Below, one piece after another: positions 362-24,175 of a stretch of DNA of 29,108 nucleotides. The position numbers and the translations under genes are program-made. Within the stretch, counting starts at the first letter, position 1, and every line of letters starts with the position of its first letter. This DNA comes from a virus, in the IMG/VR virus record IMGVR_UViG_3300044998_000332, positions 1-29,108 of that record; one strand, given 5' to 3'. The notes beneath the pieces were generated by a model that did no database searches, was not told the DNA's origin, and saw nothing but the letters and a program-made list of their open reading frames with translations.

Positions 362-3300
362 ATGGCACGCTTTGACCGCATTGAACACGACGATGGAGGT
401 AACAACAGTGGTGGAATTATCGAGCGCCTACGCGCGTGGAAAGAGTCCAAAGAAGCCGCCCAAGGAGGAGGCCAAGGACAAGGCCAAGGACAAGAAGAAG
501 GCCAAGGACAAGCGCGTCCCCTGGCCGCCCAAGAAGTGCGTGGCCCCCAGCCACAGCCTAGCCGTAGCGACATCCTAGATCGGCTGCGCACATGGCGCGA
601 CCAGCAGCGGGACACCCCGCCAACCTGGGGCAATGCCCCGTCCATGCTGGCCCAAGATGACCGTGACGAGCCGACGCAAAGCAACTACACCGGGCCGAGC
701 GTCGGCCTCACCTCGCCGCGTGTGGATACCGGCGTACCGTCACTTGGCAGCAGACGCACGTTTGATCAGCCCCTTGATCTGCCCACCCCCATGCAGCCCC
801 AGCCGCAGGTCATCCCCGACCGATGGCGCGGTATCAACGCACGGTCTCAGGAAGTGGATGCTGGCCCAGCCGAGCATATGCGGCGCGGGGAGATGTTGGG
901 CATTGACCAGCAGGCGCAGGCCTTGGGCGCCACTCTCCCATCATGGGATGAGCTGCGCGACACGGGCAAGCGGGCGTGGGATTGGTACGCTGATCAGCCG
1001 TGGTTCCAGTATGCACAGCAGTCGAGCCAGGAGATCCGCGACCGGCAACGCCAACAGGAACAGGACGCATGGCAGCGGCGCATGGAGCAGCAGCCGGGCC
1101 AAGGCACAGAACCCGTGCAGCCGCGGCCGTCCAGCGTGCCGGGCTATTACATGCCCGAAAGCCAAGTGCGCCAAACCCCAGGGCAGCAGCAGCTACGCGA
1201 CGCCATCTACAGCCGCACGCTGGGCGCCGATGCGCGCATGGTCTACCCGCCCGGCGCAGATGAGCAGTCCGCCGCGGGCAAGCTGGAGATGGGTAGCGAG
1301 CCGCCCGCGGATTGGTTGGGCCGTGCCGGGGCAAATGCGTGGGGCGCGCTCTATCAGATTGATCATCCGTTCCGCACGGTCTACGGCACCCAGCTTCCCG
1401 TGGTCGGCTATTCCGTTGCGCAGATGGTGGCCGCCCTGGGCAACACCATGCGCGGCGTAGATGCGCCCGGTCTCTATCTGCCCAACGCAGCACAAGGAGA
1501 CAAGCTCCAGGTCAGCACGACGTTTAAGCCCAAGACGCCCGCCGAGAATCCGTTTGCGGTCACGTTGGGCAAGTATGACCAGGGGCGCCAGTTGGCCGAG
1601 GAGTTGGAATCCAAGGGCTACCCCGCCGCCAAACTTGCGCTGATCAACGAGTTCTCCGGCCCGGATGCCGTGCTGCGCACACTGTCAGACATGCCGACGC
1701 AAACCCAGCGCGCCGCACAGTTGGAGGAATCAGCCCAAGCAATCCTCCAGGTTGACCCGTACCTGGCAGCGCAGCAGATGGCAGAGGCAAAGCGGATCCG
1801 CGAGATGACGCCGGTGCAGATGGTTGACGACAACATGAACATTGTTGCCGAGCTTGCCTGGGGCATCCTCTCGCCTGACCCCATCTTTGACGGAGCCGGT
1901 GCTGTGCTGAAACTGCTGCGCCTGACCCCGGAAGCGCGTGCGGTTGGCAAGGTCACGGACGCCCTTAGTCTGGTGCCTGAACAAATCCAGCGCAATCTAT
2001 CCACCGCCGTTAGCCAGCAAAAGGGGCTGATCAACAAGCTCACCAGCGGCGCCACCGACGCCAGCGCCTACTACCGGGAACTGACCCAGCCGTGGATGGG
2101 GACGGGCGAGCGCATCAGTGAGGGGGTGGGATTCTTTGCCCGCACGCCCAACAGCCGGGCTGCCCAAGACACAGAGGCATTGTGGGGCGGTCTTGTGTCG
2201 TTGACGCGCAGCCTAGGCACAGACAAGGCCGACATCCGCGCCGTGCTGGACGCGCTTGCCACCGACCCACGCCGGTTGGTTGACGGCGTGAAACTCAGCG
2301 GGCAAGCGCTTGACCTCGTGCGCGGCGGTGATGGGCTGGTGCGGTGGGACCCAAACCTGGTGGGCAACAACCAGTTTGCGCGCCGTCTCCCCATCATGGC
2401 TGCCGTGCGTGAGGAGATCGTGAACCTGCCCAGCCTCAAGGGGGATGGTCCGTTAGACAACCCTACGCGCTTTTATGCCGAGTTGTACACCAGCCTCTAC
2501 AACGCCAGTCTGAAACTGAACGGGGCGAAGGGGCCAGCCGTCAACCTGGCGGGCATTGCCAAGATTGATGTGCAACGCATTGACAACACCAGCGGGCGCC
2601 TGGTGTTCTTGGATGCAGACGACAAGGTGATTCGCCAAGGGGATGCAATGCCCATCCTCGACGCGCAGAAGAACGCCGACACGCTACGCAAGCAGATGGG
2701 AGACACCGAAGGCAAGGGGGTCATGGACTACATCTCCCTGCCGGTGGACATCCAGCGCGCCGTCATGTCTGATCTGTGGTTGGCCTTGCGCCCAGGCAAC
2801 TGGATTCGCAACGCCATGTCTGCCACCTACATGCTGGTCTCCAACAACGCCTACACGCTCACCAAGTTTGATGACATTGTGAGGGATGTGGCCGGCAAGT
2901 TCGGCGGCGTGGTGCCTAACTCGCGCCTGTTCACCGCCGACACGGGCCTGGAAATGAGCCAAGCCGCCAAGGGTGCAGGGGGGGAAGTAGGCACAAGCAG
3001 CGGGGCCATCGGCTGGATTGCCAAGCGGCTGACCGGCACCGCCGACAACCCCGTCACCCGCGCTATGAATACGGCATACAGCATCCCCTATGGCAAGACT
3101 GAAATTCCGTTGGGGAGCGCCGCCATCCCCGTAGGCGAACAGGCATTCTACGCACGGGCATGGTATGTGCCGTTCCGCCGCGCGCTGGAGCAGGACTTCA
3201 CCGGGCGCGTGGTAACGATGGTGGGCGAGATGGCCGAGCGCATGGGCATTGACCCGGACACGGCGCGCGTGGTGCAGCGTGAGGTGGTGCGGGCCGGGAT

Positions 3301-6300
3301 GGAAGGCAACGGTGAGGCCATCGCCCAAGCCATGCGCAAGCTGGCGACCAGTGACACCATGCCCAACGTGCTGCGCGACCTGGGCGTGAACGATGAGATT
3401 CTCCCTCTCGAACAGTACGCCAAGCTCAACGAGCTGCTGGCCGAGGCTGTGCCGGACACGCTGGGCAATCTTGCACCCCGCATCAAGCAGGTATTCCAGG
3501 ACGCCCGCACCCATTGGTCTGATGTGATGTCGGACGCGCCGCCCCAGCCCGGAACCTATGAGTCCATGCTGGACGAAGGGGCGGATGAGGCCGTGTGGTT
3601 GGCGAGTGAGTTGGATGTAGCCGCCAAGCGCGCTGGCACCTTGACCCCTGAAGTGAAAGCGCAGAACGCACAAGCAGCCAAGGCTTGGCACGACGCTCTG
3701 AGCCAAGCCACCACCAGCCTGGCCGGGGAACTCAAGGCCGCGCCCAACACGCCCGCGACCTGGAACGTCGCCATTGATTACTGGTTCGACATCTACGCCG
3801 CCCGTGCCGACGCGCGCAAGATGGTGGACGAGGCGCGCCGCACCGCACGCGCGGGTGGTCTGGAATGGCCCGCCTATTTTGACCAGGTGCGCAAGGCCTA
3901 CGGCGACATGGCCGTATCTTTTGGCGAGACCAGCACCAAGTACCGCAGCGCGCTCATGGATGCAAGCGCGGGCAATGCGTACAAACCAAAGCACCGTTGG
4001 GGCGACGTGCTGGAACGCTACATCCAATTCGACAAAGACAAGCTCCAGGAACTGCGCGCGCAGGTGCTTGGCGCAGGCAGCAAGGTAGCCGACGACATTT
4101 TTGACGAGATGTTGTTCTACAGTCGGCGCATGACGGAGAACAGCCTGGCCGAAGTCTTTGAGGCATTCCGGCGCTATCCCTCGCTGGAGAGCTATGACCG
4201 CATGGCGGCCGCCATGTTGCAGACAGAACGCATCGGCGCTGCCGCGGCCAAAGCCACCGATCTGCTGCGCCAACAGGCATTGACGGGCGCCATGAGTTGG
4301 CCTGACTTCTATCGGCAAACGAGCAAGATTTGGGCCGATGCCTTTGATGAGCAATCCCTCTATCACAAGGGGCTGGTCTACCACGTCGTCATGAACGGGC
4401 TTGCCAATGAAGTCGGCCAGCATTTGACGTGGACGGAACCGGGCAGCGGCACACAATGGCGGTTGCGCGGGCCGGGCAACACTGAGGGGAAGTGGGCCGC
4501 CGAGAACGTGGACAACGGCGATGTGGTAGAGGACTTCACGCCAGGGGATGGGACTACCCCGTGGACTGCCCCCCAACAAGTGGTGGACGACTACGCCCGC
4601 ATCATGCCCCAGGTGGAAGCCGAAGCCGACGACGTGATCCGCCAGGTGGCCCGCGCAGCATGGGCGCGTCAACACGGCATGACATCCACGGTGCAGGGCG
4701 ATTACACTTTCTCGCCCATCGGCGCACCCATGCCGCGCGTCCGTGGTGCGGATGACCTGCCCCCGCCTGCCGACCTGCCTCCCGATCCTGAGCCGCGTGG
4801 CCCGATTGCGCCGACCCCTGCCGCACCTGCCGCAACGCCGGAAACCATCATTGCCAAGTCCAAGTCATTCGCCAAGATGAGCGCGAGTGAGATCGTCGCC
4901 TCGGTTGAGGATGAGTTGCGCGCCGCTGGCTTTAACGATGCGGAGATTGACGCGCTGCGGAAGTCTGATCGCAACAGCGTGCTGGACATTGTGGAAGGTA
5001 TCCGCGACGAGACCCCGGAGGAAGTCGGGGGGCCGCGGATGTACGACCGTGACGCCTATGTCGCGGCGGCGGTGGAGTCTAGTCCCCTGGTTCAGGCGGC
5101 GCGCGCATCCGCAGACGAGTCGGTGGTGGAGGCTACGGAAGATTTGGTGGCGGCGCGCGCAGAAGCGATGTATGATGGTATTGTGGACACCCCGCCCGCG
5201 CCCACGACGAAGTTGGACGACAACCTGACGGCGCTGCATGGCGGGCTGGGGCTGACGGGCATTGACCCTGCCATCATGGAAAAACTGACGCAGGGGTGGA
5301 AGCCGTTTGCCCGCGCCATGTCGGGGCTGCTGGGGGATGGGCGCCGCACCCGCCAAGTGGCGGCCCCGCAGATGGGCGATCTGGCCTATCACTCCATCAA
5401 CAACCTGGACGTGCTGGAACGGCGCATCCTGGATGACCTGCCGCGCCTGACCATGCCGCGCCCCAACACCATGAACCGGGCGCAGCGCATGGCCCTGATG
5501 GATATGGCGCCCAAGGTGCAAGGCGAGTATGGGAAAAGCCTGGAAGTTGCCCGGCGCATCGGGGATGAGATGGGCAACCATACCATGCTGGACTTTGGCG
5601 ACCGGCGCAACTTTGACACCACGATGGCCCTACTGTTCCCCTATCACTACTTCTGGAGCCGGATGCCCAGCCGCGCGCTGATGGCCGCCTTGCAGAAACC
5701 TGGCTTGGTCAAGCGGGCCTATGAGATCAAGGACGCCATCCGCCGTGAGAATGAACGGGAGCAGATGCCCCAGAAGTTCGAGGGGACTGCGCCCATGCCT
5801 AACACAAACTGGCGGATGGGGGGGGACACGCTGCTTGACGTGGTGATCCCCGGCATGATGTACATGAGCGTCAACCCGTTCATTGAGACCGAGGGCGCCG
5901 AGGGGCTTGACCTGTGGGTGAAGAACGTGCAGAAGTTCAGCCTTGGGCTTGGCCCCATGCAGCAGGTGATGTATGACCTGGCGCGAGACGGCAAGCTGGA
6001 TGGCTATGCTACGCTCAATGACTTCCTGCCCATCCCGCCGCAGTCGGTACGCCAAGCCATCACGGGCGAGATGGGACGCACCGACCAGGCCATGAACCCG
6101 ATCAAGGTTGCCGAGTTTGACCCGTGGCGCGCACGCACAACCGCCGCCGTCATCGGCCAAGAACGCGGCATTGACCCGACCGTGGTGCAGGACGCCCAGC
6201 AGATCATCAACAACCAGGCGCGCGGGCTGCCCATCGCCAACGGTATCAAGGGTGGTGATCTCAACGCTGCCCAGAACCTCGCCGCCGAAGCGGTGCGCCG

Positions 6301-8854
6301 GGCTGCCCAAGAACGGCTGATGAGTCGCGGCATTTCCTTTGCGACCGGCGTGCCAGCCTACCGCTACGCGCCGGCGGATCGTGACCTGCGCGCCATCTCC
6401 AACGACTACCGCACGCTGGCGTATCCGGCGAACCCGATGGGCAGCCGCGCCGCACTCAACGCCCACATCGCCGCCAACCCCATGTTGTCGGCATGGTGGA
6501 CGCGCACGGAGGAGGGAGACGCGCCGGGCCAGTCGGCACAGCGCAGCCGCCGCTATGAGGAGCAGCAGGCAGTCTACGCCCGCCAAGCCGAGGCGGTGGA
6601 CGCCCTGTTGCGGGCCAACCCCAACGCATCCGCCAAGGAAGTGCGGGCCGTCAAAGACCAGTTCCAGCCGGAGCTAGACGCCATCAACGAGAAGTACGCC
6701 CTGGAGAGCCGCGACCCCAGCGCCTATGGACTTAGCCCGCGGGAGCAGGCGCAGCGCCAAGTGGAAGCCATCCTGCGCCATGAGCCGGAGGGCAAACCGC
6801 AGTTCCCTGGGGAGGAGTCCACGCCGGAGGAGAAGCGCCTCTACTATGCGGAGATGGCCGACTGGAACAAGAAGCGCATCCTCGCCATTGACGCGCAGCT
6901 GCGCGCCCTGGCAGGCAAGGGCGGCCCGCCCGACAACGTAACAGGCGAGGCGCGGGGCATGGTGGCCGGTCAGTATACGTCTGACCTGGTGCGGCGCTAT
7001 GAGAACCGCTACGCATCCGAGCTTGAGTACCAGTGGTCGGAGCGCATGGCCTTGGCGGGAGAATACAAGGATGCACAGTGGGCGCGGCGCAACGACGACG
7101 TGAAGCTGGCGACAGGGCAAAAGGGGCTTGACCTGTTCATTGCCTACAACGCCATCGACGACGACGCGAAGAAGGCGGAGTTCAAGGCGGCCAACCCGTT
7201 AGTGGGCGCCGCCGTGGAAGCTGCCTACCACCCGGACGAGTACAATGCGGCCGTGCGTTTGTTCGGGGATGACTGGTACATGGTCTACTCCGGCGCTCCC
7301 GAATACCCAGGGGGAGACGCCACCGAACAGGAGATGGAGGCCTACTACACGGCGCGCAACAAGTACCAGCAGGAGAACCCGGACTTCGAGAAGATTCGCC
7401 TGTGGTACAACGGGCGCCCCAAAGCGTCTGATCCTGCGACCGAGGCCGCCATTGCCAAGCTGGGCTACTTCCCGCGCGACTATGGCAAGGACTACGCTGC
7501 GGTGATGACCTGGCTGCCGGAGGAAACGTTCCAGTGGCGCATCGAATTGAACGCAGCCTACGACCAGAGTGACGACATCGGGCGCCGGTGGATTCGCAGC
7601 AACCCGGACAAGTGGATGTACATCAAGGCCTACCAGGAATGGTACAAGGAGCTTGGCGAGCAATCCACCTACCCCATGCCCGCCCAGCAAGCGGAGGCGC
7701 AACCGCCGCTGCCGGGGCAGTATCAGGGGCCGCGGCCGATGGGGAGCGACATGCAGCCCATGGGCGGCGTGCCGGGGCAACCGCCCGCGTGGAACCGGCC
7801 CGTGGGCAATGATGCGCCGCGCCAGTTCACCAGCATGTTGGGCTACACGCCGGACGCCATGCGCCAGCCCCAGCAGGCAGTCACGCCCGCTGCGCAATCT
7901 CCCTTGGGGCGGATGGCACAGCCGCCGGCCGCGCCGACCCCGCCCGCCGCAGGGGGCAACCAGGGGATCGCGATGGAGTACGCCATGCGCGACCCCAAGT
8001 TTGCCCAGGGCCAGGCCAACGAAGCGGAGTGGCAGGCCCGCCGTGCTGACGTGGGCGCCCGATTTGGGCCGGAGACGGCAAGCCTGTACGATTCCTACCT
8101 TGCGCTGCCCAAAGGCACAGCACGGGCGGAATTTAAGGCACAGCACCCGCAACTGCGCGCCGTCTCGCTGGCGGTGTGGAACGCGCCACAGTATGACTAC
8201 TTGGTGTCCACCTATGGACAAGAGGCGGTCATGGTGTGGGCGCGCACGCCCGCATGGTCTGATACCAGTCAGGCGCGTGCGGCGCGGTCGGCCTACTATG
8301 ACCTGCACCCGGAAGCGTTTGAGATCAACGCGTGGCTGTATGGGCGACCTGGCGGGGACGAGGGAGGCGGCGAGGACGAGACAACGTTCTCCTACAACTT
8401 TGGCGCAGACTACGAGCAGGCGCAGGAGTTGTTTGGTGCAGACATCTGGAACGTGGTCGCCAATTACAAGCGGGGCTGGGACAAGGGGGCAAAGGCTGCC
8501 TACTTTGATCAGAACCCGCAACTGTCCGACTTCTTTGATTGGTGGTATGGCAACCTGGAAGACCAAGTAGCAGTCGCCACCAACCGCAGCACCAGCGGCT
8601 ACGGGCGCGGGTATGGAAGCTATGGCGGTGGCGGCGGCTATCGTGGCGGCTATGGCGGTGGCGGCGGTGGTGGCGGTGGCACCCCTGGGCGAGTGAACGT
8701 GCGCATTGACCCGCGCTACATGGATCGCCGCCTGTGGCCGGAGCTTGGTCGACTGCAAGCCTGGCGGCCCATGCAGCAAGACTACGCCGCCCAGCGCAAT
8801 GCGCCCGACATCGGCCCGGAAAAGCTGCGGCGCTGGCGCAATAACTACAACTAG
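362..8854 (+). CDS. Giant 2830-aa virion-associated protein (putative internal/DNA-ejection protein)
   Basis: ATG at 362 follows GGAG with good spacing; the stop is at 8854. Visible order: an N-terminal Gln/Pro/Gly-rich low-complexity region (about residues 1-280) carrying two similar helices, IIERLRAWKES and ILDRLRTWRDQ. Next comes a long helical region with LRPGNWIRNAMSATYM near residue 810, a Pro-rich linker (about 1455-1495), and a second helical region with FPYHYFWSRMPSRALM near 1760. The C-terminus (about 2255-2740) has about six degenerate units ending in an NP/HP-x-L/F and W-Y-G pattern, then a Gly/Tyr-rich stretch (about 2745-2775). I see no catalytic motif. It takes nearly 30 percent of the window and lies between the portal and scaffold modules. 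Given the lack of tail-tube and tape-measure genes, an internal or ejection protein is my inference; the RPGNxxRN-type segment recalls large polyvalent phage proteins. The product could be processed proteolytically. Confidence 0.6.
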   Translation: MARFDRIEHDDGGNNSGGIIERLRAWKESKEAAQGGGQGQGQGQEEGQGQARPLAAQEVRGPQPQPSRSDILDRLRTWRDQQRDTPPTWGNAPSMLAQDDRDEPTQSNYTGPSVGLTSPRVDTGVPSLGSRRTFDQPLDLPTPMQPQPQVIPDRWRGINARSQEVDAGPAEHMRRGEMLGIDQQAQALGATLPSWDELRDTGKRAWDWYADQPWFQYAQQSSQEIRDRQRQQEQDAWQRRMEQQPGQGTEPVQPRPSSVPGYYMPESQVRQTPGQQQLRDAIYSRTLGADARMVYPPGADEQSAAGKLEMGSEPPADWLGRAGANAWGALYQIDHPFRTVYGTQLPVVGYSVAQMVAALGNTMRGVDAPGLYLPNAAQGDKLQVSTTFKPKTPAENPFAVTLGKYDQGRQLAEELESKGYPAAKLALINEFSGPDAVLRTLSDMPTQTQRAAQLEESAQAILQVDPYLAAQQMAEAKRIREMTPVQMVDDNMNIVAELAWGILSPDPIFDGAGAVLKLLRLTPEARAVGKVTDALSLVPEQIQRNLSTAVSQQKGLINKLTSGATDASAYYRELTQPWMGTGERISEGVGFFARTPNSRAAQDTEALWGGLVSLTRSLGTDKADIRAVLDALATDPRRLVDGVKLSGQALDLVRGGDGLVRWDPNLVGNNQFARRLPIMAAVREEIVNLPSLKGDGPLDNPTRFYAELYTSLYNASLKLNGAKGPAVNLAGIAKIDVQRIDNTSGRLVFLDADDKVIRQGDAMPILDAQKNADTLRKQMGDTEGKGVMDYISLPVDIQRAVMSDLWLALRPGNWIRNAMSATYMLVSNNAYTLTKFDDIVRDVAGKFGGVVPNSRLFTADTGLEMSQAAKGAGGEVGTSSGAIGWIAKRLTGTADNPVTRAMNTAYSIPYGKTEIPLGSAAIPVGEQAFYARAWYVPFRRALEQDFTGRVVTMVGEMAERMGIDPDTARVVQREVVRAGMEGNGEAIAQAMRKLATSDTMPNVLRDLGVNDEILPLEQYAKLNELLAEAVPDTLGNLAPRIKQVFQDARTHWSDVMSDAPPQPGTYESMLDEGADEAVWLASELDVAAKRAGTLTPEVKAQNAQAAKAWHDALSQATTSLAGELKAAPNTPATWNVAIDYWFDIYAARADARKMVDEARRTARAGGLEWPAYFDQVRKAYGDMAVSFGETSTKYRSALMDASAGNAYKPKHRWGDVLERYIQFDKDKLQELRAQVLGAGSKVADDIFDEMLFYSRRMTENSLAEVFEAFRRYPSLESYDRMAAAMLQTERIGAAAAKATDLLRQQALTGAMSWPDFYRQTSKIWADAFDEQSLYHKGLVYHVVMNGLANEVGQHLTWTEPGSGTQWRLRGPGNTEGKWAAENVDNGDVVEDFTPGDGTTPWTAPQQVVDDYARIMPQVEAEADDVIRQVARAAWARQHGMTSTVQGDYTFSPIGAPMPRVRGADDLPPPADLPPDPEPRGPIAPTPAAPAATPETIIAKSKSFAKMSASEIVASVEDELRAAGFNDAEIDALRKSDRNSVLDIVEGIRDETPEEVGGPRMYDRDAYVAAAVESSPLVQAARASADESVVEATEDLVAARAEAMYDGIVDTPPAPTTKLDDNLTALHGGLGLTGIDPAIMEKLTQGWKPFARAMSGLLGDGRRTRQVAAPQMGDLAYHSINNLDVLERRILDDLPRLTMPRPNTMNRAQRMALMDMAPKVQGEYGKSLEVARRIGDEMGNHTMLDFGDRRNFDTTMALLFPYHYFWSRMPSRALMAALQKPGLVKRAYEIKDAIRRENEREQMPQKFEGTAPMPNTNWRMGGDTLLDVVIPGMMYMSVNPFIETEGAEGLDLWVKNVQKFSLGLGPMQQVMYDLARDGKLDGYATLNDFLPIPPQSVRQAITGEMGRTDQAMNPIKVAEFDPWRARTTAAVIGQERGIDPTVVQDAQQIINNQARGLPIANGIKGGDLNAAQNLAAEAVRRAAQERLMSRGISFATGVPAYRYAPADRDLRAISNDYRTLAYPANPMGSRAALNAHIAANPMLSAWWTRTEEGDAPGQSAQRSRRYEEQQAVYARQAEAVDALLRANPNASAKEVRAVKDQFQPELDAINEKYALESRDPSAYGLSPREQAQRQVEAILRHEPEGKPQFPGEESTPEEKRLYYAEMADWNKKRILAIDAQLRALAGKGGPPDNVTGEARGMVAGQYTSDLVRRYENRYASELEYQWSERMALAGEYKDAQWARRNDDVKLATGQKGLDLFIAYNAIDDDAKKAEFKAANPLVGAAVEAAYHPDEYNAAVRLFGDDWYMVYSGAPEYPGGDATEQEMEAYYTARNKYQQENPDFEKIRLWYNGRPKASDPATEAAIAKLGYFPRDYGKDYAAVMTWLPEETFQWRIELNAAYDQSDDIGRRWIRSNPDKWMYIKAYQEWYKELGEQSTYPMPAQQAEAQPPLPGQYQGPRPMGSDMQPMGGVPGQPPAWNRPVGNDAPRQFTSMLGYTPDAMRQPQQAVTPAAQSPLGRMAQPPAAPTPPAAGGNQGIAMEYAMRDPKFAQGQANEAEWQARRADVGARFGPETASLYDSYLALPKGTARAEFKAQHPQLRAVSLAVWNAPQYDYLVSTYGQEAVMVWARTPAWSDTSQARAARSAYYDLHPEAFEINAWLYGRPGGDEGGGEDETTFSYNFGADYEQAQELFGADIWNVVANYKRGWDKGAKAAYFDQNPQLSDFFDWWYGNLEDQVAVATNRSTSGYGRGYGSYGGGGGYRGGYGGGGGGGGGTPGRVNVRIDPRYMDRRLWPELGRLQAWRPMQQDYAAQRNAPDIGPEKLRRWRNNYN
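470..511 (+). repeat. Short 12-bp repeat GGCCAAGGACAA, three copies
   Basis: GGCCAAGGACAA occurs at 470-481, 482-493 and 500-511. It encodes an alternating Gly-Gln tract (QGQGQ) in the N-terminal low-complexity part of the giant protein. It is in frame and probably arose by slippage. Confidence 0.85.
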
Positions 8855-13372: not shown

Positions 13373-15940
13373 ATGCCAGTTGGTCATGTGGCTTTGGATG
13401 GTCGGGAGTACATGCTGGCCGACACGCGTCAGTATCGCCAGATGCTTGGTAACCAGATGGCCCTCCCTGGTACGCAAGGCACAAACGAGTTTCGGTCGCT
13501 GGACTCGTGGGATGCGCTTCTTCTAAGCGACTTCACACAGGGGTTGGGTGTGCGCGACGTCGCCTCTGGCGGCTATCGTTATGCCGAGGCTGACGCGCGC
13601 TACCCTGGGAGCCTGCTCCCGCTTGCCTTGCCATATAGTCCGCACGTTTTTCATGTTGATCAGGCAGTAGACGAATTTCTGCGCGCCACCGATAGCGGCG
13701 GGTTGATTAGCCTGGAAGTCGGCGTGGGCCGGACATACACAAAGATTCGCCTGCGCCCGACCAATGCCGCCGCGAGTGCTTACAGTTTGTGTATGCTCTA
13801 TGCCGCGCTCAGCGATGGTGTGGTGAAACTGAAGGTCAGTCTGTACAATGCCGTCACGTTGACCCTGACACAGTTGTCGCATGACGTGGTGCAAGCTGGC
13901 ACGCCGGAGACAATGTCGCTGCCCCGGTGGTTGGCGCTGGGCGCCGTTGCCGGCAGTGTGCCTGCCAACGAGCACTACATCGAAATCGAGCCGACCCAGG
14001 GGAGCGTGCGCTTGCCGCTGTTTGTAGTTCAGACCACGGGAGATGCGCCCCACAAGCCAAGACTTTTCGACGGCGCATGGGCGACGTGGGCCAACGACCA
14101 GTGGCCCCTATGGTACATGGTCATGGGAACGTCCCCGACCAAGCTCTTGGGAGGCTTTGCCGCCCACAAGATGACCAGCCATATCGAACATCTGGCGCAA
14201 GCGCGCTCCACAAATTTCGCCACCAATCCTGATCTAATCAACGTGCGCACGACTAGCGTGCTGGGTTACGGTGTCACCGCGGGCATTCGCAACCTGCAAA
14301 ACTACCTGGCAGCGCCGCCATCATTGAAGTCGTTTAACATCCTCTTTGGCGAAAACGTTGCCTACAAGTTCGACCGCGTGACCAGGTTGTATCGGCGCGT
14401 GGTGTCCAATCTGCCTGACTTCGCCTGGACGGGCTTTCCCAACACCAAGCCTGCCTACCCGCGGCCAGCAGACCACACCGTGAGCCAAAGCATTGTCCGT
14501 GAGTCCTACGAGTACAGCCCCGGACAGTATGACGACGTGATCTATATCTGCAACCGCGCAAGCTATGAGGTTACAGACCTGACACATGATGCCTACATGC
14601 CCAACTCCATCGTAATGATGCCGGTGGATGAGGAGGTGGGCTACTCCCTCAATGTACATGCAGACTACATTGCTTACGCCAGCGGCTATTATTTCCGCTG
14701 TCTGCAAAACAAGTTCTGCTACTCGACTGTTTTCTATCGCACCAACATTGCCCTGGGCAGCCGCGGGGCCGGTGAGTCCGAATGGTTCACCGTGGGCGCG
14801 GCGTACCCCATCGAGGCCATCGCCACGTTGGGCGAGAACACCTACGTCATTACGGCTGAGGCGTTGTGGTGGTTTGCGCCAGGGGACATCGTTACGGGTC
14901 TGGTGCAATGGCCGGTGCGCGCCGTGGGGACTGTGCGTGCGGTGACGTGGCAAGAGTCACTGTATGTTTCTATGAGCAACAAGCTGTTCCGCTACACCAC
15001 GGATGGCCGATTGATTGATGTGTCGCCTGGGCTAAAGCCTGGAATGAAAGGGGAGTTGCGCGCGGACATCACTGCCCTGTCGTCTACCGATCACATGCTG
15101 TTGGTAGGCATGGCGTCGTATGTGGTGGGGTGGGATGGCTTGGGGTGGGGGATGGTTGCGCATTTGCCAGGCCACCAGGTGCGCAGCATTGTTGTTGACC
15201 GTGGGGACGGTATGCTCGTGATCCTCACCGACAAAACCGTCTTTCACTTGCAGACGCCGCTGACCGGCGAGAATCCCGTTCAGGCTACGCCCGCCCCCCT
15301 CTTTTCGTCGGAGGCATGGCTGGAAACTGATTGGTTCTGGGGCGGCACGCGGGAGGTGTTGAAAGATTGGGAGTCTGTCACCATCTCCCTTGACGACGAG
15401 TTGATCCAGCCGTCAGATAGCGTAAGTGTTTATGTGTGGTTTGAGGGCGCCAACGCTGCCGACCGCACGGGCTGGACGCTGTTAGGCACGACGGCGCTAG
15501 GGGAATCCGTTGGGCAGATTCGCTTCACGGGCGCCAACCGCCAACCCTCGCACCGTATCAAGATTGGGTTGTGGGTCAAGACGCGCAGTTCACAGCCCGT
15601 CGCCGTCGAAAATGTGCGCCTAAAATATCAGATCATGCTCAACGACACTTGGCGCTGGTCGTTCCCGATCTTGATTAGCGGTGACACCGAGCAACCCCAG
15701 CAGATGTTGGACGGCGCGCCCAATCCCTACACCCGTACACAGCAGATCGCCCATCTGCGCGCCCTGGCAAAGGCGGCGGCGCCGGTGGCGTTCCGCGACT
15801 TGACCGGGCAGAATTACGAAGTGAAGGTGGAGGAGGCAGGTTTTTTCCCCAGCCGGGTAGAGGTCGTCGGCGGGACAACGGAGAGTGACGGCATTGTGCA
15901 GGTGACAGTGGAGGAGCAAGGCGGTGCAGTCTCCGCTTAA
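13373..15940 (+). CDS. Large tail/minor structural protein with beta-propeller-like middle
   Basis: 855 residues. It starts at ATG 13373, 5 nt after the previous stop. Order of segments: an N-terminal VALDGREYMLADTRQYRQ motif and a DSWDALLLSDFTQGLGVRD segment, then a beta-rich body (about 80-250). A long region of short beta strands with Trp, Gly and Asp follows (about 300-640). There, phrases such as LYVSMSNKLFRYTTDGRLID and MLLVGMASYVVGWDGLGWG resemble propeller blades. Next is a jelly-roll-like segment (about 650-750) and a C-terminal LRALAKAAAPVAFRDLTGQNYEVKV domain of the type found in tail-tip proteins. No catalytic residues are evident. In a short-tailed phage this could be the nozzle or receptor-facing tail protein; the domain reading is by eye. 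Confidence 0.5.
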   Translation: MPVGHVALDGREYMLADTRQYRQMLGNQMALPGTQGTNEFRSLDSWDALLLSDFTQGLGVRDVASGGYRYAEADARYPGSLLPLALPYSPHVFHVDQAVDEFLRATDSGGLISLEVGVGRTYTKIRLRPTNAAASAYSLCMLYAALSDGVVKLKVSLYNAVTLTLTQLSHDVVQAGTPETMSLPRWLALGAVAGSVPANEHYIEIEPTQGSVRLPLFVVQTTGDAPHKPRLFDGAWATWANDQWPLWYMVMGTSPTKLLGGFAAHKMTSHIEHLAQARSTNFATNPDLINVRTTSVLGYGVTAGIRNLQNYLAAPPSLKSFNILFGENVAYKFDRVTRLYRRVVSNLPDFAWTGFPNTKPAYPRPADHTVSQSIVRESYEYSPGQYDDVIYICNRASYEVTDLTHDAYMPNSIVMMPVDEEVGYSLNVHADYIAYASGYYFRCLQNKFCYSTVFYRTNIALGSRGAGESEWFTVGAAYPIEAIATLGENTYVITAEALWWFAPGDIVTGLVQWPVRAVGTVRAVTWQESLYVSMSNKLFRYTTDGRLIDVSPGLKPGMKGELRADITALSSTDHMLLVGMASYVVGWDGLGWGMVAHLPGHQVRSIVVDRGDGMLVILTDKTVFHLQTPLTGENPVQATPAPLFSSEAWLETDWFWGGTREVLKDWESVTISLDDELIQPSDSVSVYVWFEGANAADRTGWTLLGTTALGESVGQIRFTGANRQPSHRIKIGLWVKTRSSQPVAVENVRLKYQIMLNDTWRWSFPILISGDTEQPQQMLDGAPNPYTRTQQIAHLRALAKAAAPVAFRDLTGQNYEVKVEEAGFFPSRVEVVGGTTESDGIVQVTVEEQGGAVSA

Positions 15941-17576: not shown

Positions 17577-18194
17577 TCACTCCTCCTGCATGGCTTTGGC
17601 TACGGTGGGATAGCATTGGATGAAGATGTCCTGCACGGCCAGGGCCACCTGGCGGTGTTCCGCCTGGGTGTCGGGCTGGGTGCGTAGTTGGATGTAGTGA
17701 ATCCACGACCGGCAACTTCCCGTCATGTACAGGGTCGTGCGCGTGGCTTGGGGCAGGACCATGCGTGCGCACTCGCGCGCAACTCCCTCGGCCAGCAGTC
17801 TCTCGTAGACCCGTGCCGCCGCCACTAAATAACGTTGGATCAGTTCGTCCAGGTCTGGGTTCTTGATGGGGTCGGTGCTGCTTTGGCGGTTCTTCTCTGC
17901 CTGTCGCCGTAGGGTGATCGGATCAAAGGTAGGCGCATCGCCGTTGTAGCGGCGTGATAGCTGTTGGAATGTGAAGCTCCTGTGGCGGAGTATCTGTGTC
18001 GCGATAGCCAGCGATGTAGTTATCTCGACGGTGAGGTACGAATGCTCAAACACTGACCAGTGTCCGTGCTTGAGGCAGTAGGCCAGCAGCTTGGCGTAGT
18101 CGGGGTTGTCCTGGTTGTTGGGGTTGGAGACGCGGGCGATGTACGCCATCGTCTGCTCCGGGTTCGGCGTGACGCTGATTAACTTGACGCTCAC
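17577..18194 (-). CDS. thyX: Flavin-dependent thymidylate synthase ThyX
   Basis: 205 residues. I choose GTG at 18194, which overlaps the upstream stop as GTGA; the longer frame to 18728 is only a shadow of the preceding gene. ThyX methylates dUMP to dTMP using FAD, NADPH and methylene-tetrahydrofolate. Visible signatures: HWSVFEH (residues 45-51), the ThyX motif RHRSFTFQQLSRRY (70-83), and ECARMVLPQATRTTLYMTGS with downstream LRTQPDTQAEHR. In the motif, Thr stands where the consensus RHRxxS has Ser. It sits in the replication operon between the loader-like and MazG-like genes, consistent with boosting dTTP during phage DNA synthesis. Confidence 0.93.
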   Translation of the reverse strand: MSVKLISVTPNPEQTMAYIARVSNPNNQDNPDYAKLLAYCLKHGHWSVFEHSYLTVEITTSLAIATQILRHRSFTFQQLSRRYNGDAPTFDPITLRRQAEKNRQSSTDPIKNPDLDELIQRYLVAAARVYERLLAEGVARECARMVLPQATRTTLYMTGSCRSWIHYIQLRTQPDTQAEHRQVALAVQDIFIQCYPTVAKAMQEE

Positions 18195-18718
18195 TTGGGG
18201 CCTCCCATCAGGCGCTTGATCACGTTGCCCACATGCTCCACGGTGCCGCCCTTGGCCTCGAGGAGATTGACGGACTGCGGTAGCAGGCGCCGGTTGGCGA
18301 GGTCTCGCTCTTGGGCTTGCTCGAACATGCGCATGAAGTGCGCGCGGTCGGCCATGCCGTTCTCGCTGGCGCATAGGTCGCGCCACCCCATGTTGGCGAC
18401 AATGCGGGCGACGATGGGACTGTCGAATGTCGGGCTGCCCCAAGCGCCCACGCGCCGAATCTCCGCGGTGACCATGCCCCAGGCGGCGTCGGCGGTTAGC
18501 TGGTGCTGCGGCTGGGTCAGGCGATACCAGCGCTGGCGCAGCTCCGCCACGGTGGGCAGAAAGGTACACTCGCTGATCGCCTGGTCTGTGACGACCTGCA
18601 ACTCCTCCACGGGGATGTCGCGCAGCAGTTTGACGTACATGGCGACCGTCCCCTCGGTGGCCCGGTTGTTGGGATATGCCTCGAACAACTGGCGCAGGAT
18701 GGCGGCGATAGAGTTCAT
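18191..18718 (-). CDS. Putative replicative helicase loader (G39P-like)
   Basis: 175 residues; ATG at 18718 overlaps the initiator stop as ATGA, with AAGGAG upstream inside that gene. The N-terminal domain (about residues 1-65, ending VTDQAISECTFLPTVAELRQRW) follows the pattern of phage helicase loaders of the G39P type: a helical domain with Y-x-x-L-L-R-D-I-P and F-L-P-T-V-A-E-L. The second part (80-135: AWGMVTAEIRRVGAWGSPTF, NMGWRDLCASENGMADRAHF) resembles extensions of phage replication proteins. Together with the upstream DnaD-like initiator it would recruit the host DnaB-type helicase, since no phage helicase is seen. Function is inferred from motif pattern and operon position. Confidence 0.6.
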   Translation of the reverse strand: MNSIAAILRQLFEAYPNNRATEGTVAMYVKLLRDIPVEELQVVTDQAISECTFLPTVAELRQRWYRLTQPQHQLTADAAWGMVTAEIRRVGAWGSPTFDSPIVARIVANMGWRDLCASENGMADRAHFMRMFEQAQERDLANRRLLPQSVNLLEAKGGTVEHVGNVIKRLMGGPK

Positions 18719-19506
18719 AGCTGCACATCTCCTTTCTCTAGCTTTGCAAAAAAGGCGTCCACCGCCTCGGTGCCTTGGGACTGCCGTCGTGCGGGGGCGG
18801 GTGCGCTGTTGGATTGTCGCCGCGGGTCATGGGTCTTGGCCGCCGCGTGGTTGCGCGCGCAGGTTGCGATGTACTTGAAGTTGCGTGCGTTGGCTATGAC
18901 GCTGGCGGTGATGCCGGCAATCACGGCGTCGGGGCCGCACTCGTCAATGAGGTCGTGCAGGTTGTCCGAAAGGATGGGCGACAGGGTTCCAGGGATGTTC
19001 TGGTACCAAGCCTCAATGACTCGTTGGCGGGCGCGCGCCTTCTCCTCATCATCTTTCTTTTTCATTGGCGGATCAGAGGACGGATCAGATGACGGATCGG
19101 CTCGCGTCGGCGCGAGTACGGTACTCGCATCGGTGCGAGTACCCCCCCCCTCGCCATGCGAGTACGGTACTTGCATGGTGCGAGTACCCCCCTCCCGCGC
19201 TGGGAGTACCCCCCCTGGCAGGATGCAAGCACGTTCAAGGTTGATGCGATACTGGTTGGGGCGGTTGCGCTGACTATCCCAACCACCAGCCTGCACCAAC
19301 TCGACCTTGCCCTGTTTGATCAGCTTATGGATGATGCGGCGCGCCTGGTCTGCGGACAGGCGCGCTTTCTTGGCGACGGTGGCGATGGATGGATAGATGC
19401 TGCCGCCGTCGTCGTTGGCGAAGTCCGCAAGGGCCAGCAACACAAGCAGTTCGCTCCCGCTGGCGTCGGCGCTGTCCCAGATGGCCGCCATGACTTTGAT
19501 GCTCAT
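18715..19506 (-). CDS. DnaD/O-like replication initiator with origin repeats inside the gene
   Basis: 263 residues; ATG at 19506 after GGAGG. The N-terminal winged-helix domain (about residues 15-90: ELLVLLALADFAN, SIYPSIATVAKKARLSADQARRIIHKLIKQGKVEL) resembles phage replication initiators. A low-complexity middle (about 96-150) is encoded by iteron-like DNA. The C-terminal domain (about 158-222: VIEAWYQNIPGTLSPILSDN through NFKYIATCARNHAAA) resembles DnaD/DnaB2 helicase-loading domains. Such proteins bind the phage origin and hand over to a helicase loader, which is encoded next with an ATGA overlap. The layout mirrors lambda O, where iterons also lie inside the initiator gene. A 9-base homopolymer at 19142-19150 interrupts the middle and could be slippage-prone. 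Confidence 0.7.
   Translation of the reverse strand: MSIKVMAAIWDSADASGSELLVLLALADFANDDGGSIYPSIATVAKKARLSADQARRIIHKLIKQGKVELVQAGGWDSQRNRPNQYRINLERACILPGGVLPAREGGTRTMQVPYSHGEGGGTRTDASTVLAPTRADPSSDPSSDPPMKKKDDEEKARARQRVIEAWYQNIPGTLSPILSDNLHDLIDECGPDAVIAGITASVIANARNFKYIATCARNHAAAKTHDPRRQSNSAPAPARRQSQGTEAVDAFFAKLEKGDVQL
19045..19210 (-). other. Putative replication origin: iterons plus AT-rich tract inside the initiator gene
   Basis: GCGAGTAC occurs at 19112, 19135, 19158 and 19180, with a degenerate GGGAGTAC at 19202. Copies at 19112 and 19158 form palindromes (GCGAGTACGGTACTCGC, 19112-19128; one mismatch in the second). Those at 19135, 19180 and 19202 are followed by a C-run. The whole block repeats with a period of 45-46 bp. 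Downstream in gene sense lie two 12-bp repeats, CGGATCAGAGGA (19069) and CGGATCAGATGA (19081), then an AT-rich stretch (about 19046-19067, roughly a quarter GC) in an otherwise GC-rich genome. Iterons followed by an AT-rich segment within the initiator gene is the lambda-type origin arrangement. The assignment is inference from this architecture. Confidence 0.6.
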
Positions 19507-19609: not shown

Positions 19610-19876
19610 TTATCCCTCCAGGTGGGGCGCCAAGATCGCATCGCCAATGCTCGATCCGGCAATGATGACTGCCTCACCGAGTGGCTGTGCCAGCCCGCGC
19701 CCGGCGATGGCGACGGCCAAAGCCTCTAGCCCGCCCATCTCGCGCCCGCCGCCTGCGATTTCCCTGGTCGCCGCGGCGTTGGCTGCCACCGCCGCCGCCA
19801 GGACAAGCAGCGCAGCCGCAATAGGTTCGCCCACTTCCTCAAGAGCATCAACGTAGTCGTCAATAACTTCTTTCAT
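19610..19876 (-). CDS. 88-aa Ala-rich hydrophobic protein, unknown function
   Basis: ATG at 19876 overlaps the regulator stop as ATGA; AAGGAGG lies 7 nt upstream. The N-terminus is acidic (MKEVIDDYVDALEEVGEP), followed by an Ala/Val/Leu-rich segment (AAALLVLAAAVAANAA) and a second weaker hydrophobic stretch (EALAVAIAGRGL...GEAVIIAGSSIGDAILA). It could be a small membrane or helical-hairpin protein. No family recognised. It sits between the regulator and the initiator, so it is an early protein. Confidence 0.6.
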   Translation of the reverse strand: MKEVIDDYVDALEEVGEPIAAALLVLAAAVAANAAATREIAGGGREMGGLEALAVAIAGRGLAQPLGEAVIIAGSSIGDAILAPHLEG

Positions 19877-20145
19877 CGTGCTGCCTCCTTCAGTAGTTCT
19901 GCGATCCGCTGGTTCATCTTCCAGAAAGGTTCCGGGTATCCCTCGCTGACCAGCAGGTCAATCGGGTTGCACCCTAGCGCCGCCGCCAAACGCTCGGCAG
20001 TCCTTGCCGACCAGCCGCCACCGCGCAGTACCGGCGTCAGCGTGTTGGCATGGACGCCACTCATGGCGGCCAACTCCTGCACGCTGCGAATCCCCTTCTC
20101 CCGCATCAGCGCGTGAACGCGCTCCCCATCAATTCGTAGTTTCAT
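19873..20145 (-). CDS. Cro/CI-like XRE-family regulator
   Basis: 90 residues from ATG 20145, with AAAGGAG 6-7 nt upstream. The frame continues upstream to 20550 but that part has no start signals and crosses the operators, so it is rejected. The helix-turn-helix is clear: SVQELAAMSGVHANTLTPVLRGG (residues 21-43), followed by ARTAERLAAALGCNPIDLL typical of XRE proteins. No protease or dimerisation domain follows, so the size is Cro-like rather than full CI-like. It is the first gene of the leftward replication operon and faces a divergent early operon. The two matching operator-like palindromes between them are its likely targets (inference), giving autoregulation. Confidence 0.85.
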   Translation of the reverse strand: MKLRIDGERVHALMREKGIRSVQELAAMSGVHANTLTPVLRGGGWSARTAERLAAALGCNPIDLLVSEGYPEPFWKMNQRIAELLKEAAR

Positions 20146-20173: not shown

Positions 20174-20212
20174 ATTCTAGCACAGTTTTCTGTGAATCGT
20201 CCCCCCCCAAAA
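20174..20212 (-). promoter_or_regulatory. Leftward early promoter (mirror copy of the rightward one)
   Basis: Read on the minus strand: a G8 tract, then TTCACAGAAAACTGTG, one base, and TAGAAT (plus coordinates 20174-20179), forming an extended -10 (TGCTAGAAT). There is no good -35. The operator palindrome fills the -35/-10 spacer, so a bound regulator would block polymerase. The start codon of the regulator is 29 nt downstream of the -10. Confidence 0.6.
20180..20195. promoter_or_regulatory. Operator-like palindrome O-left
   Basis: GCACAGTTTTCTGTGA contains the perfect inverted repeat CACAG-TTTT-CTGTG. Its sequence matches the reverse complement of the site at 20286-20301 at most positions. 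It is adjacent to the leftward -10. Confidence 0.65.
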
Positions 20213-22094: not shown

Positions 22095-22129
22095 GGTCAC
22101 AAAGCCGTGTGTAGCAGGGGGGGGGCAAT

Positions 22130-22634: not shown

Positions 22635-24175
22635 GCCTCAGCCTACTGAGCGTATTCGCCAAGCCTACCCACAGCAACGCCTGGCTTGAGTATGTGACGC
22701 AGCTCAAGCCGTATGACATCCTCCTGCTTGACCCGGACATCCAGCAGGTGAGCGATGCGCATGTGGCCTCGCCCGATAGCGAGATCACGATCCGGCGCTG
22801 GGATTGGGACGACGCGCGCACGGAGCAGAATCCCGATGGCATCTATGGCCGGTTGCGCGATGACCCTGAAGGGCTGGCCGCCTGGCAGGTGGAGCAGTAT
22901 GCGGAGTTGATTCGCGGCTGGGAAGATGAGGCGAAACGCCGAGGGCTGCCCTGGCCCGACCGCGAGCAGTTGGTGATGCACCTGACCAATGAGCCGGACA
23001 CCAACACGCTCATGGCGCAGATCAACCGCACGACGGTGGTGGGCGCAAAGCTGGCGTGGAACTTTGGCTGCAAGGTGGATGGGCTGAACCTGTCCACGGG
23101 CCATCCGGCGCATCTGTTCAACGGTCAGTCGGACTGGCGTCTGCTGCTGGAGGCGCTGGAGGCGCTGGAAAAGACGGGCAGCTATGCGACGGTGCATGAG
23201 TATCGCAACAGCCTGGGCATCCGTCACCCGGACACTTATCCCTGGCACATCACCCGCCATCACTGGGCACCGCGCGGGCCGCGCTACAAGATTGGCGAGT
23301 ACGGGCTGGAGGAAATCCTCAACGGCGTGATGGCTGATCATCATGGCTGGATGGGCCGTGTCTCGCCGGAGCAAATGTTGGCCGACACGGACTGGTATTT
23401 GGGTCAGGTGCGTGATGACGTGGTGGCGGTGCGCTGGTACATGACCGACTTTGCCGACCGGCGCTGGCGCACGTTTGACAGTACGCCGCTGCACCCGCAG
23501 TTGGTGGAGATCGGGCGGCGCCATGTGCGCGCTGCCCCGAAGCCACAGCCCAACGCCCCGATCCCGGTGCCTCAACCACCGCCGCCAAGTGTCCCGCCCG
23601 CGCAGCCCAGCCCCGGCAAGGTCTCGCCCAAGGTGCTGTCTGCGATCCTGCGCGTGGAGTCGGGCGGCCGCGCGTTCGGGGATGATAAGCGCCTGCTCAT
23701 CCGTTTCGAGGCGCACATCTTTGGCCGCTATGCGGACCCCGGCTTTTTCGTTCTGCACTTCAAGCACGACGCCGCCAAGCCGTGGATGGAGCAACACTGG
23801 CGCGAGCAGCCAAACGCCCCGTGGCGCCCTGTCCACACAGGCCAGCAGGCCGACGAGTGGGCCGCCTTCGAGTTCGCCGCATCACACAACCAACGCGCTG
23901 CGATGCTGTCCATCAGCATGGGCGCCCCGCAGATCATGGGGTTCAACTACGCAACCGCCGGCTACTCCACCGTCCAGTCCATGTTCGATGGATTCACGCG
24001 CGGCGGGGAGCAGGAGCAGACGTTGGCGTTCATGTCGTTCCTCCTCAACACGGACGGGATGTTGGATGCCATCAGGCGCAAGGACTGGCGTACCATCGCC
24101 CGGCTCTACAACGGGCCGGGAAACATCGAGGTCTACGCAGACCTCCTCCGCAAAGCCTACCTCGCCATCCAGTAA
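22631..24175 (+). CDS. Modular endolysin: clan GH-A-like glycosidase plus N-acetylmuramidase domain
   Basis: 514 residues, ATG 22631 overlapping the holin stop. N-terminal domain (about 1-300) looks like a TIM-barrel glycosidase. LTNEPD places an acid/base-type Glu at 121, and IGEYGLEE places a candidate nucleophile Glu at 223, the NEP...E pattern of clan GH-A. A Pro-rich linker follows (about 302-330). The C-terminal domain (about 335-514) matches N-acetylmuramidase (DUF3380): ILRVESGG with Glu343 as likely catalytic residue, LLIRFEAHIFGRY, SISMGAPQIMGFNY, LYNGPG. It would cut the peptidoglycan glycan strand at the end of infection. There is no signal peptide, so release depends on the holin. 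What the first domain cleaves is unknown. Confidence 0.8.
   Translation: MSLSLLSVFAKPTHSNAWLEYVTQLKPYDILLLDPDIQQVSDAHVASPDSEITIRRWDWDDARTEQNPDGIYGRLRDDPEGLAAWQVEQYAELIRGWEDEAKRRGLPWPDREQLVMHLTNEPDTNTLMAQINRTTVVGAKLAWNFGCKVDGLNLSTGHPAHLFNGQSDWRLLLEALEALEKTGSYATVHEYRNSLGIRHPDTYPWHITRHHWAPRGPRYKIGEYGLEEILNGVMADHHGWMGRVSPEQMLADTDWYLGQVRDDVVAVRWYMTDFADRRWRTFDSTPLHPQLVEIGRRHVRAAPKPQPNAPIPVPQPPPPSVPPAQPSPGKVSPKVLSAILRVESGGRAFGDDKRLLIRFEAHIFGRYADPGFFVLHFKHDAAKPWMEQHWREQPNAPWRPVHTGQQADEWAAFEFAASHNQRAAMLSISMGAPQIMGFNYATAGYSTVQSMFDGFTRGGEQEQTLAFMSFLLNTDGMLDAIRRKDWRTIARLYNGPGNIEVYADLLRKAYLAIQ

Follow-up and report, generated by a model that had tools for sequence, protein, structure and literature searches.

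A likely replication origin of a tailed phage within the linker-coding region of its own initiator gene

We found that a set of short DNA repeats in a phage initiator gene, located in the part of the gene which codes for a protein linker, is in all likelihood the replication origin of that phage; the mechanism of opening and loading is one that we infer. Origins inside initiator genes are already known, and by this feature alone the present case is a new member. The second repeat element which it appears to share with other phages suggests a variant that is not described in the literature searched, which is not proof of novelty. The window, i.e. the whole stretch of DNA analyzed, is IMG/VR record IMGVR_UViG_3300044998_000332 (29,108 bases) and is probably incomplete, with genes running off both ends. 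It belongs to a tailed phage, and its proteins include an SU10-like major capsid protein, large terminase, N-acetylmuramidase, RecT and ThyX (Pfam and PHROG searches). Two very long ORFs were also observed (362-8854, 2830 aa; 13373-15940, 855 aa), the shorter of which matched nothing in Pfam or PHROG. A leftward operon begins at ~20.15 kb and comprises a Cro/CI-like HTH gene, the initiator gene (19506-18715), an overlapping 175-aa gene (18718-18191) and thyX. Its genes and domains are as follows.

19873..20145, minus strand: Cro/CI-like HTH regulator at the head of the operon (HTH_26, E 7.6e-10)
18715..19506, minus strand: initiator gene, P0001, 263 aa, with N-terminal wHTH, disordered linker with repeats and weak DnaD/DnaB_2-like C-terminal domain (Pfam, PHROG, AlphaFold2)
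19309..19461, minus strand: predicted wHTH DNA-binding domain of P0001, residues 16-66 (Pfam HTH_36, E 1.9e-11)
18847..19002, minus strand: weak DnaD/DnaB_2-like C-terminal domain of P0001, residues 169-220 (Pfam, 19.4 bits, cut-off 22)
18191..18718, minus strand: probable G39P-type helicase loader, P0003, 175 aa, overlapping the end of the initiator gene (PHROG, AlphaFold2 fold match)
17577..18194, minus strand: thyX, coding for flavin-dependent thymidylate synthase and following P0003 in the operon (Thy1, E 4.7e-48; start inferred from sequence)

Judged by its domains, P0001 is an O-like/primosomal wHTH initiator with HTH_36 and a weak DnaD-like C-terminal domain. It matched the PHROG families “replication initiation O-like” (E 9e-17) and “primosomal”, and in Pfam it showed HTH_36 instead of Phage_rep_O, for which there was no match at E≤1. 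The DnaB_2 (E 9e-4) and DnaD_N (E 7e-4) matches were sub-threshold. In the AlphaFold2 model, the wHTH had a pLDDT of 87-97, the C-terminal domain was helical and of modest confidence, and residues 107-145 were below 50; this predicted disordered linker is the segment encoded by the repeats. The site had earlier been described as the low-complexity middle of a DnaD-like initiator; the linker is indeed of low complexity and predicted to be disordered. A Foldseek search with the whole model returned generic wHTH proteins with weak scores (top PDB entries 4pql, 4pt7 and 5kbj, E 0.01-0.02, TM-score ~0.4), among them a DNA-bound plasmid RepA (5kbj). The N-terminus of P0001, with its HTH_36 wHTH and the start MS-x3-M, resembles that of initiators bearing the repeat GAACCRTCA, and all 38 members of that set (38/38) matched HTH_36.

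The overlapping gene P0003 matched a PHROG helicase loader family (E 3e-4). The best PDB match of its AlphaFold2 model was SPP1 G39P (1NO1; prob 0.97, rmsd 2.1 over 60 columns, 27% identity), which at E 1.1 is statistically weak. P0003 had no match to Pfam G39P, and none to Phage_lambda_P or a PHROG P-like family. Close relatives in IMG/VR were found neither for P0003 nor for P0001. Homologues of P0003 were located immediately behind the initiator in Moorella phage MCACPph1, one small gene further in Aeromonas phage 4_4512, near motif-bearing initiators in IMG/VR contigs L027, L035, L136, L114, L036 and L111, and also in the protein-selected locus L284. The protein family found at these loci and in the window, PHROG 9804/10105, is listed as of unknown function. 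It comes behind HTH_36 initiators, its model is similar to SPP1 G39P, and it is probably a widespread helicase-loader family, which would give these entries a likely role.

The iterons were identified in the sequence at a start-to-start spacing of 23, 23, 22 and 22 bp, followed by 23 bp to a degenerate sixth copy. On the plus strand they read GCGAGTAC (19112, 19135, 19158 and 19180), GGGAGTAC (19202) and degenerate GCAAGCAC (19225); a single further copy of GCGAGTAC in the 29-kb window is at 23295. The coding-strand forms are given below.

19112..19119, minus strand: iteron 5, GTACTCGC, forming the left arm of a perfect palindrome of 17 bp (19112-19128)
19135..19142, minus strand: iteron 4, GTACTCGC, with a G tract before it
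19158..19165, minus strand: iteron 3, GTACTCGC, forming one arm of an imperfect palindrome (19158-19174)
19180..19187, minus strand: iteron 2, GTACTCGC, with a G tract before it
19202..19209, minus strand: iteron 1, GTACTCCC, one mismatch, with a G tract before it
19225..19232, minus strand: possible degenerate copy, GTGCTTGC, 23 bp away and in phase

The palindrome, GCGAGTAC-G-GTACTCGC, is perfect in its first occurrence and has one mismatch in its second; the sequence-only reading of this DNA had placed two iterons in palindromes. That reading had also counted four iterons plus one degenerate copy with a 45-46 bp period. The array was confirmed as five regularly spaced copies, four exact and one with a single mismatch, and the degenerate copy is a sixth. 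The period is 22-23 bp; 45-46 bp is the distance between every second copy, as the palindromic kind and the G/C-tract kind alternate. Tracts of 6-10 G or C adjoin three iterons (19139-19217), and other such tracts are present in the early region at 20200-20208 and 22117-22126. A chain of five 8-mers with at most one mismatch at 21-24 bp was found in none of 1000 synonymous-codon shuffles of the initiator gene (a four-copy chain in 3), and it was absent from every other 792-bp stretch of the contig, except for those overlapping the iteron site. The best 8-mer count without the spacing criterion was matched in 21-48 of 20000 shuffles, and is less discriminating than the spaced chain because the peptide itself is repetitive. 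A pattern search of IMG/VR for an exact triple of GCGAGTAC gave no match.

Next to the iterons, we found the 12-bp repeats and AT-rich stretch that had been described as following them.

19063..19098, minus strand: three 12-bp repeats, coding strand GATCCGTCATCT / GATCCGTCCTCT / GATCCGCCAATG (tandem-pair matrix score; GATCC variant in other initiators)
19043..19066, minus strand: AT-rich stretch AATGAAAAAGAAAGATGATGAGGA, candidate unwinding region (71% AT in 24 bp)

The latter is the only 24-mer of 71% AT between 17577 and 19506 and the richest in the initiator gene. Under a weight matrix from whose training the window was left out, the pair at 19098/19086 on the coding strand was the top-scoring tandem pair of the whole 29 kb on both strands. 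Its score was equalled in 5 of 400 synonymous shuffles of the initiator gene; this result is modest, as the peptide DPSSDP already has a repetitive sequence. Compared with GAACCRTCA, T replaces the second A of GAACC and the third copy is degenerate, so that the strict GAACC core is not exact. However, these repeats contain the best tandem pair in the window, and the GATCC variant is found inside other wHTH initiators; the GATCCGTCA repeats are therefore probably a variant of the GAACCRTCA element. A scan of IMG/VR for GATCCRTC triplets found 66 arrays on 64 contigs. Of these arrays, 47 were inside wHTH initiators, mostly of one clade of close relatives, and L453, L461 and L480 look independent.

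In the relatives compared, which number hundreds of genes, a common plan was observed: a wHTH, 3-5 phage-specific iterons at 21-23 bp, and 1-4 second repeats every 11-12 bp. Iterons were located in the same part of the gene in Bordetella PHB09 (AAAGGGTGCA, spacing 21, 21 and 22 bp), Mesorhizobium P1 (AAGGGTGACACC, 23 and 22 bp), Arthrobacter PhluffyCoco (AACGGGGTGAC, 22, 22 and 22 bp) and EBPR podovirus 2 (ACCCGGAA, 22 bp), all of which are relatives by wHTH similarity alone. Aeromonas phage 4_4512 has iterons CCCCGCAG at 22/23 bp; its locus (L420, 1652-1806) contains six iterons as 45-bp duplicated pairs, followed by 12-bp GATCCTAACAAT/GAACCTAACAAT repeats. Read from its sequence, this is a recent iteron-pair duplication with the frame kept: two iterons make 45 bp, or 15 codons, so that duplication of a pair keeps the reading frame. 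No clear iteron array was found by the spacing detector in Ruegeria 45A6 and Arielagos. Two Arthrobacter phages (L010, 3357-3404; L011, 3362-3405) have linker repeats 25 bp apart with G tracts (CCCCGGGGGGG) and no clear 22-bp iterons. Among 44 initiators, 38 had three or more copies at 19-26 bp (shuffle mean 13.8, maximum 20) and 24 had four or more regularly spaced copies (shuffle mean 3.1, maximum 6). A greedy cluster count was also tried as an iteron test and was rejected, as it was not discriminating in most relatives. In a set of 38 relatives (55-93% identity), codon identity at conserved residues rose from ~0.5 in the flanking domains to ~0.8 in codons 84-131, the stretch that contains both iterons and second repeats. 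The same rise was seen in two further sets that overlap the first. This codon-constraint test covers related sets only, and P0001 of the window is outside these sets.

The short repeat AACCRTC followed the iterons every 10-13 bp in several relatives. An IMG/VR scan for three copies returned at least 120 contigs, and among the matches listed, 99 of 144 arrays (83 of 120 loci) were inside an ORF with a wHTH. For the remaining 37 loci among the matches listed, 13 were cut <300 bp from the locus end and two had a wHTH ORF just before the array; many other non-wHTH loci look like 12-bp protein repeats. A control pattern of the same composition, CCAARTC, gave one wHTH ORF match in 544 arrays among the matches listed (99 of 144 for the motif), and 521 of the 544 had an exact 12-bp protein-repeat period. 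Because both totals are lower bounds, the location of the arrays, and not their raw number, is the evidence. Among 31 representatives chosen by protein only (<60% identity to each other), the element had 60 coding-strand copies at a spacing of 11-12 bp, compared with 10.6 in synonymous shuffles (maximum 18 in 100 shuffles), and one copy on the opposite strand. The base after the searched core was A in 60 of 60 copies and the base before it mostly G, which extends the element to GAACCRTCA. The second-repeat block is a local AT maximum in many genes. At a spacing of 10-13 bp, GAACCRTCA arrays occur in phage initiator genes (IMG/VR loci L017-L136) so often that origins of uncultured phages could be located by them. 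A literature search for GAACCRTCA returned only primers or unrelated text; most subscription papers were outside its scope, and such absence is no proof of novelty.

By analogy with the 5'-ATCA repeats of RctB, we propose that the second element is a strand-specific unwinding or ssDNA-binding element. More specifically, there is an even chance that the GAACCRTCA/GATCCRTCA of HTH_36 phages, nearly invariant and present once per helical turn, is the single-strand capture site of the initiator, i.e. a loader-independent counterpart of the DnaA-trios and the RctB ATCA repeats, by which origins can be found from sequence alone. A different possibility, in our view somewhat doubtful, is that the origin is real and the second repeats bind a host factor (e.g. 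DnaA, IHF/HU, DnaG or DnaB) as double strand rather than the initiator on single strands. Among phages with different hosts, the element varies far less than the iterons do, as would be expected of a binding site for a conserved partner. However, it does not resemble a DnaA box or an IHF site by eye, and its strand bias and 11-bp spacing beside the iterons fit contact with the initiator. Also, it co-occurs with DnaB-type, DnaC-type and lambda-P-type downstream genes and with varied C-terminal domains, HTH_36 being the common factor; it goes with a single family of initiator domains, irrespective of the loader or helicase encoded next.

It is very unlikely that the repeats are an operator cluster through which the wHTH protein regulates its own operon while replication starts elsewhere. 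Proteins with the fold of the P0001 wHTH are often regulators, and iteron proteins commonly autoregulate. However, the repeats lie in mid-gene, ~300 bp inside, whereas the divergent promoter region is near 20.15-20.4 kb. Besides, the array has the anatomy of an origin (regular iterons, second repeats and AT-rich stretch) next to a loader-like gene, and this anatomy is found again where the downstream genes are DnaB, DnaC-like or lambda-P-like. GC skew was uninformative on the position of the origin: the global maximum of the cumulative skew was at 28.1 kb, away from the repeats, in an incomplete contig, and a local change at 19-20.5 kb coincided with, and is confounded by, the divergence of transcription.

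Even less likely is a purely protein-level explanation, in which the DNA repeats of a low-complexity linker would simply mirror peptide repeats (GTRT, SSDPSSDP). It is consistent with the predicted disorder of the linker and with the 12-bp repeats of the window, which share one frame and encode DPSSDPSSDP. In contrast, the iterons fall in different frames, given their 22-23 bp spacing, and shuffles that preserve the peptide abolish the array. Among relatives, all three reading frames are used for the second element (54, 27 and 18 of the 99 wHTH-ORF arrays, among the matches listed), and synonymous codons are frozen there. Least likely of all is a role as cis sites in some other process, e.g. 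packaging or recombination: phage genes can embed pac sites, but the large terminase gene is ~5 kb from the repeats at 24.6 kb on the other strand, the sites are within a replication initiator, and from phage to phage the layout goes together with the initiator family.

The placement of an origin inside this initiator gene, already made from the sequence, was supported by the O-like PHROG match, HTH_36 (E 2e-11), the loader-like neighbor, the shared layout and the frozen codons of the related set. In the mechanism that we envisage, the wHTH of P0001 would bind the GCGAGTAC iterons at 22-23 bp, a phage-specific address, and wrap the DNA, and the strain of wrapping would open the neighboring 12-bp repeats and AT-rich stretch. 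The initiator might then hold one exposed strand through GAWCCRTCA-type repeats, one per helical turn, in the manner of RctB on 5'-ATCA or DnaA on DnaA-trios, and the C-terminal domain together with the overlapping G39P-like loader would place the replicative helicase on the strand that had been opened. To our knowledge, origins have been mapped for only a few phages. A searchable, conserved second element would allow origin prediction inside the initiator genes of many uncultured phages and prophages, and a variable address with a constant opening element in one short segment would permit a direct test of DNA opening by small phage initiators.

Several known systems resemble parts of this arrangement. 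The RepA proteins of staphylococcal plasmids (pSK41, pTZ2162; RepA_N) also have a wHTH N-terminal domain, which in RepA binds iterons, and the likeness at the E-values and TM-score given above is one of generic wHTH similarity. In the unwinding region of Bacillus subtilis oriC, the DnaD Recognition Element is a motif of single-stranded DNA that is specific to one strand (PMC10201434). A DnaD-like domain, weak in P0001, and a strand-specific repeat in the candidate unwinding region would be common to both cases, but the motif consists of pairs of 5'-TnnT-3' and not of GAACCRTCA. Vibrio cholerae ori2, with six 5'-ATCA repeats in the unwinding element and the initiator RctB (PMC11711613; PMC10797057), similarly combines double-stranded iterons with RTCA-type repeats that are evenly spaced along one strand of the adjoining unwinding region; the sequence beyond RTCA differs, and the likeness is an analogy only. 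DnaA-trios provide a further precedent (PMC10797057).

The closest parallels are phages lambda and SPP1. In lambda, ori lies in the middle of gene O with iterons and an AT-rich stretch, and a helicase loader gene is next (PMC7466680); a sequence scan located its iterons at 39034, 39054, 39078 and 39101. The window similarly has its probable origin in mid-initiator gene, direct iterons at ~20-24 bp, an AT-rich stretch downstream and a loader-like gene next. The parallel with lambda O/ori and an unrelated-looking initiator, drawn in the sequence-only reading, thus holds for the layout and for the HTH_36/DnaD-like initiator without a Phage_rep_O match; the partner gene resembles SPP1 gp39 and is not lambda-P-like. 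In addition, lambda O, when scanned, contained no good tandem GAACCRTCA pair, whereas the window has the 12-bp variant. In SPP1, gp38 binds direct repeats in its own gene (oriL in gene 38), with an AT-rich unwinding element and the small loader gp39 (PMC6316719). No G40P-like helicase gene was present among the window proteins scanned, and a second origin like oriR was not found in the window. Repeats inside the initiator gene and an AT-rich element are shared with SPP1, and the best, if weak, PDB match of the model of the small loader-like gene is G39P. As the partner gene is more like gp39 than like lambda P, the functional model that comes nearer is SPP1 gp38/gp39; the site is very probably an origin, with a lambda-like layout and a partner gene closer to that of SPP1.
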